A stretch of 64,000 nt of DNA from NCBI RefSeq assembly GCF_005845365.1, contig NZ_CP040509.1, forward strand, positions 186,001 through 250,000, given 5' to 3'. Numbering within the stretch: position 1 is the stretch's first letter; each line of letters begins with the position of its first letter. The stretch is from Rhodoluna limnophila (GTDB lineage: Bacteria; Actinomycetota; Actinomycetes; Actinomycetales; Microbacteriaceae). The position numbers and the translations under genes are program-made. The notes beneath the pieces were generated by a model. It was given only the letters and a program-made list of their open reading frames with translations. It did not search any database and was not told the DNA's origin. Shown piece after piece: positions 3,562 to 49,832 of this stretch.

Positions 3562-3637
3562 GGCAGCACAACATCCCTCGGGGTGTTACCTCCGGAGAAG
3601 GCCGGAGCCCAATCGTGAGATTCGGATGTGTTGCTCC
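3562..3637 (+). ncRNA. structured leader RNA before rpsM (candidate r-protein leader)
   Basis: The gap between rpmJ and rpsM can fold into a branched structure. Outer helix: 3565-3576 with 3624-3635, interrupted by a two-base internal loop, plus GG 3562-3563 with CC 3636-3637. Inside it are a perfect hairpin CTCCGG 3590-3595 with CCGGAG 3602-3607, and AATC 3611-3614 with GATT 3619-3622 closed by a GTGA (GNRA-type) tetraloop. The rpsM ribosome-binding site follows at 3655-3660. Such structures often bind a ribosomal protein for feedback control. The pairing is seen; the function is inferred. Confidence 0.5.
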
Positions 3638-3667
3638 AGACCTTCTAAACAAACAAGGAGAAATCCC

Positions 3668-4045
3668 ATGGCACGTGTTGCCGGAGCCGATATTCCAGAC
3701 GCGAAGCGCGTCGAAATCGCACTTACCTACATCTACGGCATTGGCCGTACTCGCTCAGTCCAGATCTTGGCTGAGACCAAAGTTGACAAGAACATCCGCG
3801 TAAAGGACCTTACCGACGACCAGCTAGTCGCTATCCGTGACTACATCGAAGGTAACTACAAGGTTGAGGGTGACCTCCGCCGTGATGTTGCAGCAGACAT
3901 TCGCCGCAAGGTTGAAATCGGCTCATACGAGGGTATCCGTCACCGCAAGGGCCTACCGGTCCGCGGTCAGCGTACCAAGACCAACGCACGTACTCGCAAG
4001 GGTCCAAAGCGTACCGTAGCCGGCAAGAAGAAGGCGGCACGCTAG
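3668..4045 (+). CDS. rpsM: 30S ribosomal protein S13
   Basis: Head protein of the small subunit that contacts P-site tRNA and the B1 intersubunit bridges. The start ATG at 3668 is chosen over an in-frame upstream ATG at 3626 because AAGGAG at 3655-3660 is correctly spaced and the protein then begins [20 protein letters not shown], as in the family. The 125 residues include the GIGRTRS turn and the basic tail [16 protein letters not shown]. The upstream ATG would lie inside the structured leader. Confidence 0.96.
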
Positions 4046-4103: not shown

Positions 4104-4502
4104 ATGGCAGCACCTAAGGCAAGCGTTCGCAAGCCACGCCGCAAAGAGAAGAAGAACATTGTTGTAGGCCAGGCCCACATCAAGAGCACCTTCAACAACA
4201 CCATCGTTTCAATCACTGACGCCACCGGCGCTGTGATCTCATGGTCATCATCTGGTGATGTTGGCTTCAAGGGTTCACGTAAGTCAACCCCATTCGCAGC
4301 TCAGCTTGCAGCTGAAGCAGCAGCACGTAAGGCACAGGAGCACGGCCTAAAGAAGGTTGACGTTTTCGTGAAGGGCCCAGGCTCAGGTCGCGAAACCGCA
4401 ATCCGTTCACTTCAGGCTGCAGGTCTAGAGGTTGGTTCAATCTCAGACGTAACTCCTCAGGCTCACAACGGCTGCCGCCCACCAAAGCGTCGCCGCGTCT
4501 AA
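4104..4502 (+). CDS. rpsK: 30S ribosomal protein S11
   Basis: Platform protein of the 30S subunit near the mRNA exit site. The 132 residues carry family motifs such as [33 protein letters not shown] and a C-terminal end in [17 protein letters not shown] lies eight bases before the ATG. In most bacteria rpsD follows; here a 184-base non-coding, hairpin-rich stretch precedes rpoA instead. Confidence 0.97.
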
Positions 4503-4524
4503 CCTTTGGTTTCGCATCCGACTG

Positions 4525-4668
4525 GGTGTGCAATTGCCTGAACTTCGGCAACTGCACGCCGAGTTAGAAACCCCACCGCGGGTTTCAGCCCAGTTTTAAT
4601 CTCGCAACAAACCTGAACAGTGGCCACTGATCAGGCCCCAACAAATAGACATCAAATAGCGGATGTCT
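4525..4668 (+). ncRNA. four consecutive hairpins before rpoA
   Basis: The rpsK-rpoA gap contains four separate inverted repeats. (1) 4525-4560: GTGCA/TGCAC and TTGCC/GGCAA with one mismatch, extended by three outer pairs. (2) GAAACCC 4567-4573 with GGGTTTC 4580-4586. (3) CCTGA 4612-4616 with TCAGG 4631-4635 around the palindrome AGTGGCCACT. (4) AGACATC 4647-4653 with GATGTCT 4662-4668. GAAAGGA follows as the rpoA ribosome-binding site. No long T-run follows any hairpin directly, so a simple terminator is less likely than a leader or processing region. Function is inferred. Confidence 0.5.
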
Positions 4669-4686
4669 AGCTGAAAGGAACCAAAC

Positions 4687-5679
4687 GTGCTGATTGCACA
4701 GCGTCCAACTCTTCACGAAGAAGTACTAGCACCTAACCGTTCACGCTTTGCTCTAGAGCCTCTAGAGCCTGGCTTCGGTTACACCCTAGGAAACTCACTC
4801 CGCCGTACCCTACTTTCATCTATCCCAGGTGCAGCTGTTACCAACATCCGCATTGAGGGTGTTCGTCACGAGTTCAGCACCATCGAAGGCGTTAAAGAAG
4901 ACGTCACCGAGATCATCTTGAACATCAAGGACCTCGTAGTCTCTTCAGAGCACGACGCACCTGTTGTTGCTCACCTACGCAAGCAGACCGCTGGCGTTGT
5001 GACCGCTGCTGACATCCAGGTTCCTGCTGGTGTTGAGGTTCACAACCCTGAGTTGGTAATTGCAACAATCAACGCAAAGGCAAAGTTCGAAGTTGAGCTA
5101 ACCATCGAGCGTGGCCGTGGCTACGTTCAGGCTTCTCAGAACCGCAACCCAGATGCAGATGCCGGTGTAATTCCAATCGACTCAATCTATTCACCAGTTC
5201 TAAAGGTTTCTTACCGCGTTGAGGCAACTCGTGCCGGTGAGTTCACTAACTTCGACAAGCTGATTGTTGATGTTGAGACCAAGCCATCAATCACTCCTCG
5301 CGATGCTGTTGCATCTGCCGGAAGCACTTTGGTTGAGTTGTTCGGTCTTGCGCGCGAGCTAAACGTTGCAGCAGAAGGTATCGAGATCGGCCCAGCACCA
5401 GTTGAGGCCGGCCTTTCGCCAGAGCTTGCAATGCCTATCGAAGACCTGGACCTAACCGTCCGTTCATACAACTGCCTAAAGCGTGAGGGCATCAACACCG
5501 TTAGCGAGCTAATCGGTCTTTCAGAAGACCAGTTGATGAACATCCGCAACTTCGGTAGCAAGTCGGTAGATGAGGTTCGCGACAAGCTAACCTCAATGGG
5601 ACTAAAGTTCAAGGACGCCGTCCCAGGCTTCGACGCAGCTTACTTCAGCTCGGCTTACGACGAGGACGACCAGGCGTAA
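4687..5679 (+). CDS. rpoA: RNA polymerase alpha subunit
   Basis: Alpha subunit that dimerises to nucleate RNA polymerase assembly. Residues 1-230 form the N-terminal dimerisation domain ([20 protein letters not shown] near residue 30). After a flexible acidic linker, residues 250-315 form the C-terminal DNA-binding domain ([20 protein letters not shown] and [11 protein letters not shown]). The 330-residue length is usual for Actinobacteria. Start GTG at 4687 is preceded by GAAAGGA. Leucine codons here are strikingly often CTA. It lies between rpsK and rplQ, without rpsD. Confidence 0.97.
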
Positions 5680-5718: not shown

Positions 5719-6213
5719 ATGCCTACCCCAACTAAGGGACCACGTCTAGGTGGCGGACCAGCTCACGAGCGTCTAATGCTTCGTAACATGGCTACTTCGC
5801 TATTCAAGCACGGCAAGATCACCACGACTGAGACCAAGGCAAAGCGCCTTCGTCCAGTTGCTGAGCGTCTTGTCACCTTCGCAAAGCGCGGAGACCTGCA
5901 CGCACGTCGTCGCGTTATGCAGCAGATCACTGACAAGTCAGTTGTTCACGAGCTGTTCGCAAACGTCGCACCGTTGGTTGCAGACCGCCAGGGTGGCTAC
6001 ACCCGCATCACCAAGCTTGGCTACCGTAAGGGCGACAACGCTCCTTTGGCGCTAATCGAGCTTGTTCTTGAGCCAGTAGCCCCAAAGAACGCAACCAAGA
6101 AGCCTAAGCTTGCTAACTCTGTCAAGGCAGTTGCAGCTCCTGTTGAGGCTCCAGCCGAGGTCGTTGAGACCCCAGCTGAGGACGCAGCAGTAGAGGCTCC
6201 AGCAGCAGAGTAG
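5719..6213 (+). CDS. rplQ: 50S ribosomal protein L17 with Ala/Glu-rich tail
   Basis: Large-subunit protein near the peptide exit tunnel. Residues 1-118 are the conserved core, starting [19 protein letters not shown] and including [15 protein letters not shown] and [18 protein letters not shown]. Residues 120-164 form a low-complexity tail rich in Ala, Pro, Val and Glu, a type of extension common in actinobacterial L17. AGAGGAG lies before the ATG. The acidic tail is probably disordered and surface exposed. Confidence 0.96.
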
Positions 6214-49608: not shown

Positions 49609-49694
49609 CCGCTGTTTCCGTTCTGAGTGAACGTACTGCGGGGTAGGAAAAGTAGGCCGAGGCCTGTGCCAAAAAACGGCGCGACCTAAGCCTG

Positions 49695-49812
49695 TTCTTC
49701 TCCCATCCGGACTTTAACCGTCGGCATCTGAATTTCACAGATTCAACCGACCACCGAAGTGGGCGGGTCGCGGGCTGTAACCGCCGGCTCAGATTTTCAC
49801 TGACCCCGAAGA
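49695..49812 (-). promoter_or_regulatory. FMN riboswitch (RFN element)
   Basis: On the minus strand the conserved blocks occur in order: TTCGGGGTCAGTGAAAATC, AGCCGGCGGTTACAGCC, CGCGACC, a variable hairpin with CCACTTCGGTGG, GAATCTGTGAAATTC, GCCGACGGTTAAAGTC and GGATGGGAGAAGAA. These match the RFN consensus that binds FMN and lowers rib operon expression. No clear terminator follows, so control is probably at translation of ribD; that part is inference. Confidence 0.97.
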
Positions 49813-49832
49813 ACGTGTGTTGCTAAATAAGG

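Follow-up and report, generated by a model that had tools for sequence, protein, structure and literature searches.

A Conserved Hairpin Upstream of RNA Polymerase Subunit Genes in Actinomycetia Is a Candidate Translational Operator

Immediately upstream of the rpoA Shine-Dalgarno sequence of Rhodoluna limnophila lies a short hairpin, here called hairpin 4, which on comparative grounds is a cis-acting RNA whose position before RNA polymerase subunit genes predates the divergence of the Actinomycetia. We lean slightly toward the view that hairpin 4 is the functional part of the rpsK-rpoA gap and would serve as an operator through which a trans-acting protein sets the translation of RNA polymerase subunits.

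Results

The rpsK-rpoA gap folds stably and is variable in layout

In the window, by which we mean the whole 64,000-nt stretch of DNA analyzed, 184 nt separate the end of rpsK (4502) from the start of rpoA (4687), and rpsD is absent between these genes; the sole S4 gene of the genome is found at G000:C1:665969-666589 on the minus strand. The gap folded to -70.8 kcal/mol compared with -45.2 +/- 4.4 kcal/mol for 200 dinucleotide shuffles, none of which was equally low (z -5.83). The minimum-energy fold comprised hairpins 1 to 3 (Table 1), a fourth hairpin at 4642-4673, and an additional marginal hairpin at 4588-4605. The ORFs, the location of the S4 gene, and the fold z-score confirm what the initial annotation had described, a 184-nt gap with rpsD missing and four hairpins.

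Table 1. Positions of genes and RNA features around the rpsK-rpoA gap
Feature	Position	Strand	Description
rpsK (S11)	4104-4502	+	ORF; also the query for finding relatives
Hairpin 1	4520-4565	+	Lineage-specific; shared by the nearest relative, L002, with several pairs changed
Hairpin 2	4567-4586	+	Lineage-specific
Hairpin 3	4612-4635	+	Genus-level; invariant self-complementary core UGGCCA, covarying outer stem
Hairpin 4	4646-4669	+	Conserved element; 8-bp stem, octaloop AAAUAGCG at 4654-4661
Shine-Dalgarno of rpoA	4673-4679	+	GAAAGGA, from sequence; 3 nt 3' of the hairpin 4 stem
rpoA	4687-5679	+	ORF with GTG start; relatives found by tblastn
rplQ (L17)	5719-6213	+	ORF; named by sequence and gene order, not by family search

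The four-hairpin layout was not conserved among relatives. Gap length ranged from 91 to 208 nt across 25 loci of the same genus, and among the gap hairpins recurrence was limited to the third, in the genus, and the fourth, in the class. A long stem formed by UUUGGUUUC and GGAACCAAA closes the whole gap in the best fold; apart from the window, it was present in the nearest relative alone. The GGA of the rpoA Shine-Dalgarno sequence is predicted to pair with the 5' end of the gap in the window, a pairing that is not conserved, and we rejected sequestration by the gap 5' end as a mechanism; it involves 9 bp and is limited to the window and L002. A promoter was sought in the gap and none was found, and the plus strand from 4400 to 4800 contained no terminator-like site, that is, no GC-rich stem followed by a U-run as in an intrinsic terminator.

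Relatives do not generally share hairpins 1 and 2, and hairpin 1 is absent from short gaps such as that of L009 (105 nt). Hairpin 3 is found at one place in the genome of the window, and its UGGCCA core occurs in 25 of 25 loci of the genus. Across 19 distinct rows, 93.0% of its stem cells were paired compared with 72.7% in shuffles, with double changes at eight of nine pairs. Since the arms covary over nine pairs, an RNA hairpin is likelier than a DNA palindrome, which we considered and set aside. With its self-complementary core, hairpin 3 (4612-4635) could dimerize or bind a protein.

Hairpin 4 has a covarying stem and a near-invariant octaloop

Hairpin 4 is 24 nt long, and in the context of the window its stem pairs are predicted with probabilities of 0.95-1.0 and its loop is predicted to be single-stranded. 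We aligned 45 of the 49 distinct hairpins drawn from the genus, the order, and the class (alignment A1), leaving out L063 and L067, which have a bulged stem, and L011 and L017. Paired cells amounted to 90.4%, as against 74.0% in shuffles and at most 47.4% in slid versions of the alignment. Compensatory changes on both sides were observed at six of the eight pairs, and the covariation score was 0.622 compared with 0.298 in shuffles. The covariance check among relatives that the initial annotation had proposed thus found compensatory changes in both recurrent hairpins.

The octaloop has the near-invariant consensus A-W-A-U-R-G-Y-G, and the closing end of the stem consists of C-G and U-R (U-A or U-G). 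In a set of 97 distinct contexts, the search pattern in part dictated columns 8-17, and the invariance seen there is therefore not independent evidence. The distance from the stem end to the rpoA start codon in the 97 contexts was 14-25 nt with a mode of 17. Hairpin 4 accordingly shows two features of protein-binding cis-regulatory leaders, namely, a stem with compensatory changes and a consistent place before linked genes (rpoA, and rpoB in family f4).

Hairpin 4 precedes rpoA in nearly all genomes of the class

A covariance model of hairpin 4 (R1) detected one strong copy in the genome of the window (E 5.9e-8), the next best match having an E of 0.10. When 398 genomes of the phylum were searched at a cut-off of E 0.05, 82 gave matches, comprising 70 of the 74 genomes of the class Actinomycetia and 12 genomes outside it. 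All 55 class matches (of the 70) fetched with their surroundings sit before rpoA, and in the class genomes without an R1 match (G221, G258, G365, and G437), the hairpin before rpoA was found by reading. At the 12 places fetched from the 12 out-of-class genomes, one of which (L367) covers 255 nt only, neither rpoA nor rpoB was found by tblastn or translation. Second R1 matches within the class were fetched in six cases, and none was near rpoA or rpoB. In the related class f34, three of three genomes have this loop before rpoA, carried on a stem with a bulge, and most other classes of the phylum are without hairpin 4 at this site.

A pattern scan of named genomes returned at least 120 stretches. 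Among the 80 matches listed, 74 lie before rpoA, a nearness that is partly built in since the scan pattern includes the first rpoA codons; these come from Streptomyces, Mycobacterium, Nocardia, Micromonospora, Actinomadura, Propionibacteriaceae, and others. The rest of the 80 are one match cut at a locus end and five non-actinobacterial matches not near rpoA, which are due to chance and serve as a measure of the chance level for the pattern.

Other conserved-looking hairpins stand just before rpoA in clades without hairpin 4, both in family f29 (L061, L062, L066, L069, and L070) and in the two rpoA gaps of f4 that were sampled first (L034 and L038), where a different hairpin takes the place of hairpin 4. 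The sequences of these f29 and f4 hairpins are GCGGGG...CCCCGC and CCGGUG-AGUGCAC-CACUGG. Many other families have GC-rich hairpins further upstream that differ in sequence and shape.

Hairpin 4 is independent of rpsD

The rpoA gene was reached in 75 loci, and hairpin 4 was present in 57 of them, 16 with rpsD between rpsK and rpoA and 41 without. The 18 loci that lack it are two of family f4, which belongs to the window's own order, and 16 outside the class. Because hairpin 4 precedes rpoA irrespective of whether the gap contains rpsD, it is not a remnant of a lost rpsD. The absence of rpsD from the gap is common to the genus and many families, and judging from these comparisons it is not the cause of hairpin 4, an element independent of rpsD. 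The relocated S4 belongs to a distinct lineage, with 66-79% identity to the copy of the window's genome compared with 42-44% for most operonic copies, and hairpin 4 occurs with both S4 lineages. Genomes without an rpsD in the alpha operon carry the distinct S4 elsewhere, and G039 has both lineages.

These results bear on one proposal of the initial annotation, a leftover S4-binding target. We now regard it as very improbable that the site is such a leftover, or a shifted S4 target, from a former rpsD between rpsK and rpoA. S4 is the known regulator of the alpha operon of E. coli according to a review (PMC10931766), and a hairpin loop in the leader of the relocated rpsD of the genus shares UAGC with hairpin 4, both of which speak for the proposal. 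Against it, the same hairpin occurs in the 16 loci with rpsD in the gap and the 41 without, the relocated S4 is of a different lineage (about 42-44% versus 66-79% identity), and the motif stands before rpoB in f4. The shared UAGC amounts to 4-5 nt and sits in another structure in other families, and according to the same review, the alpha cistron of E. coli lies outside S4 control and is 'regulated independently' (PMC10931766).

We compared the loop AAUAGCC of the genus rpsD leader with AAAUAGCG of hairpin 4 as a possible shared S4 site and rejected the likeness as chance, since in other families (16 regions upstream of rpsD), it fades to a UAGCC stretch in another structure or to nothing. The relocated rpsD has a large leader of its own that is conserved in the genus (L275, about 190 nt upstream), with the sequence GGUUGCCGACU...CGGCUG...AAUAGCC...GGUCCGUGGC, and this leader in L275 has no Rfam match.

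The motif stands before rpoB in family f4

We searched 41 genomes of f4, which we take to be Bifidobacteriaceae, with R1 and obtained 23 matches in 22 genomes and none in the other 19. Nineteen of the 23 lie 100-199 nt before rpoB, one before rpoA (G452, L331), and three near neither; rpoB was identified in L320 by NCBIfam TIGR02013 and elsewhere by tblastn with the L320 rpoB. In the 19 leaders, the hairpins lie 64-199 nt upstream of the rpoB start. The loop occurs 36 times in them, with one to three copies in each leader, whereas shuffles predict 0.059 copies per leader. Visual inspection places the first copy shortly 3' of a TATAAT-like box.

In 13 of the 19 f4 leaders (L320, L322, L323, L343-L357, and L376), the GCGGGC strand of the first hairpin has a possible pairing partner further 3', a GCCCGC stretch, which hints at two mutually exclusive folds, that is, a possible switch.

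Outside f4, ten genomes were fetched, and the rpoB start was found in eight of them and not in two. The eight comprise genomes of the window's own genus, Streptomyces-like genomes, and others. Seven of their rpoB leaders had no loop, and the eighth (G046) had one loop match upstream of an apparent promoter. With the non-f4 rpoB leaders lacking the loop, no genome was seen to have the element before both rpoA and rpoB. The location before rpoA in most clades and before rpoB in f4 indicates that the shared target is the RNA polymerase subunit genes and not the ribosomal protein genes. A different rpoB leader is conserved in the window's own genus (L378 and L383); it contains GCAUAUNNNGGC twice, once within a hairpin with the loop AUAUUGAG or AUAUUUUG, possibly a distant variant of the octaloop.

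Hairpin 4 differs from the known RNA elements of the alpha operon

Rfam 15 gave no match at the hairpin 4 site. We found no description of hairpin 4 in PMC text, and a 2017 list of 224 candidate RNAs, which lay outside the search, may hold the motif. It is not mentioned in the available parts of PMC2864571, PMC11109978, PMC5395140, and PMC7536230, and the available text of Eckert and Weinberg 2020 (PMC7247131) contains no rpoA leader for Actinobacteria.

Alpha_RBS (RF00140), the gammaproteobacterial S4 operator, resembles hairpin 4 in being a cis RNA of the alpha operon that acts on translation. It is, however, a pseudoknot located before rpsM and involving the rpsM ribosome-binding site, whereas hairpin 4 is a plain, single stem-loop before rpoA, and RF00140 had no match in 4503-4686 up to E 5, hence none at its gathering cut-off. 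The distribution of hairpin 4, with or without rpsD, with both S4 lineages, and before rpoB in f4, likewise argues against S4 binding as far as sequence comparison can tell. The L17-Actino-Proteobacteria leader (RF03132) is, like hairpin 4, a covarying element of the same operon in Actinobacteria according to the available text of PMC7247131, but it sits between rpoA and rplQ and has a different structure and sequence. Among 18 loci scanned up to E 1, RF03132 matched only L055 and L056 and in no case the rpoA hairpin; both of these loci have RF03132 between rpoA and rplQ and hairpin 4 at its own, different place. L17DE is also a structured element of the alpha operon region, but it lies 3' of rplQ and is confined to Firmicutes in the available text of PMC7247131, and it was not detected here.

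A likeness of the loop to rRNA was tried as well, both as mimicry and as pairing of the loop with rRNA, and rejected: the best matches were 10 of 12, the same as for shuffles, and there was no convincing model match; the two loci included flanks and so overlap. Since the loop is unlike any rRNA stretch beyond chance, no ribosomal ligand is suggested, and as judged from sequence there is no support for S4, L17, or rRNA mimicry as the basis of ligand binding.

A separate leader precedes rpsM

A branched leader with a pseudoknot lies before rpsM at 3562-3646 of the window and is conserved in the class. The AGAAGG loop of the hairpin at 3590-3607 pairs with CCUUCU at 3641-3646. In alignment A4, which holds 36 of 46 leaders with ten dropped and eight further loci excluded earlier, the hairpin and pseudoknot had 98.4% paired cells with double changes at nine of 12 pairs; the fold z-score of the leader in the window was -3.28. 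RF00140 has one weak match in the window, at 3596-3700 before rpsM (17.5 bits versus a cut-off of 38), and the leader has no match in Rfam 15 at threshold. We consider this pseudoknot, a candidate (S4?) leader, the likelier site of ribosomal-protein feedback in the operon. The window also contains an FMN riboswitch at 49691-49817 on the minus strand (102.3 bits).

Discussion

We propose that a trans-acting protein recognizes the octaloop of hairpin 4. By binding at the 5' border of the ribosome-binding site, it would lower or gate the initiation of rpoA translation, or else affect the fate of the mRNA, and rplQ might be affected too by translational coupling with rpoA; lying 3' of rpoA, rplQ may be coregulated with it. 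The synthesis of alpha would thereby be set apart from that of the ribosomal proteins encoded on the same mRNA. The simplest ligand would be RNA polymerase or an assembly intermediate (alpha, alpha2, or alpha2-beta), giving autogenous control, since such a ligand explains the location before rpoA in most clades and before rpoB in one. This choice of ligand is a guess that, even granting a protein-bound operator, we hold to be somewhat less probable than its negation. The full scheme, in which RNA polymerase, or alpha or alpha2-beta, would bind the AWAURGYG octaloop in the mRNA of its own subunits and repress translation, is correspondingly tentative. The wider picture is equally doubtful for now: across nearly all Actinomycetia, among them mycobacteria and streptomycetes, such an autogenous operator would precede rpoA, and in f4 up to three copies of it would precede rpoB.

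RNA polymerase of E. coli exerts autogenous translational control over rpoBC, and we use this feedback of the enzyme on the mRNA of its own subunits as a working analogy for hairpin 4. The gene, the organism, and the element all differ, so that the comparison is one of analogy and not of membership; to our knowledge, no conserved hairpin family has been defined for the rpoBC control. The initial annotation had suggested a new autoregulatory leader for alpha synthesis, of which a conserved, covarying cis element tied to RNA polymerase subunit genes has been upheld and the autoregulation is what we infer. Its interpretation as a whole is partly supported.

The same sequence and distribution data would also fit a loop read by a protein other than RNA polymerase, such as a ribosomal protein or a dedicated RNA-binding regulator, that coordinates the synthesis of RNA polymerase subunits; the data do not single out RNA polymerase, and we regard this alternative as possible, if on the unlikely side. 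What weighs against it is that the loop has no rRNA-like sequence and that the genes common to the sites are those of RNA polymerase subunits, rpoA or rpoB, rather than any one ribosomal protein gene.

Less probable still, and on balance unlikely, is the reading, raised as RNase processing in the initial annotation, that hairpin 4 is a processing or stability site, at which a nuclease would cut at or near the loop or which would shield the 5' end of the rpoA-rplQ mRNA, setting the level of rpoA-rplQ apart from that of the upstream ribosomal protein genes. The hairpin does stand at the junction between the ribosomal protein genes and rpoA in the mRNA, with and without rpsD, and in f4, where it follows a TATAAT-like box, it seems to be close to the start of the mRNA, as would suit a 5' shield. 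However, an invariant octaloop on a freely changing stem exceeds the needs of most nuclease sites, and one to three copies before rpoB fit binding sites better. The invariance of the loop counts also against a ligand-free translation element, a standby site or spacer that would help ribosomes initiate at rpoA whether or not rpsK or rpsD is being translated, since a spacer alone has no need of such a loop. Although the fixed 14-25 nt to the start codon (mode 17) and the strong Shine-Dalgarno sequence directly 3' of the stem are in keeping with such a role, the f4 hairpins, at 64-199 nt before the rpoB start, are too far away for one, and we think this reading quite improbable. A protein-bound operator is the reading that we prefer over these alternatives.

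How the synthesis of RNA polymerase subunits is set separately from that of ribosomal proteins within a shared operon is poorly understood. Hairpin 4 is a concrete RNA with an invariant loop that can be used as bait, and with it, the control of RNA polymerase synthesis in Actinomycetia becomes testable.
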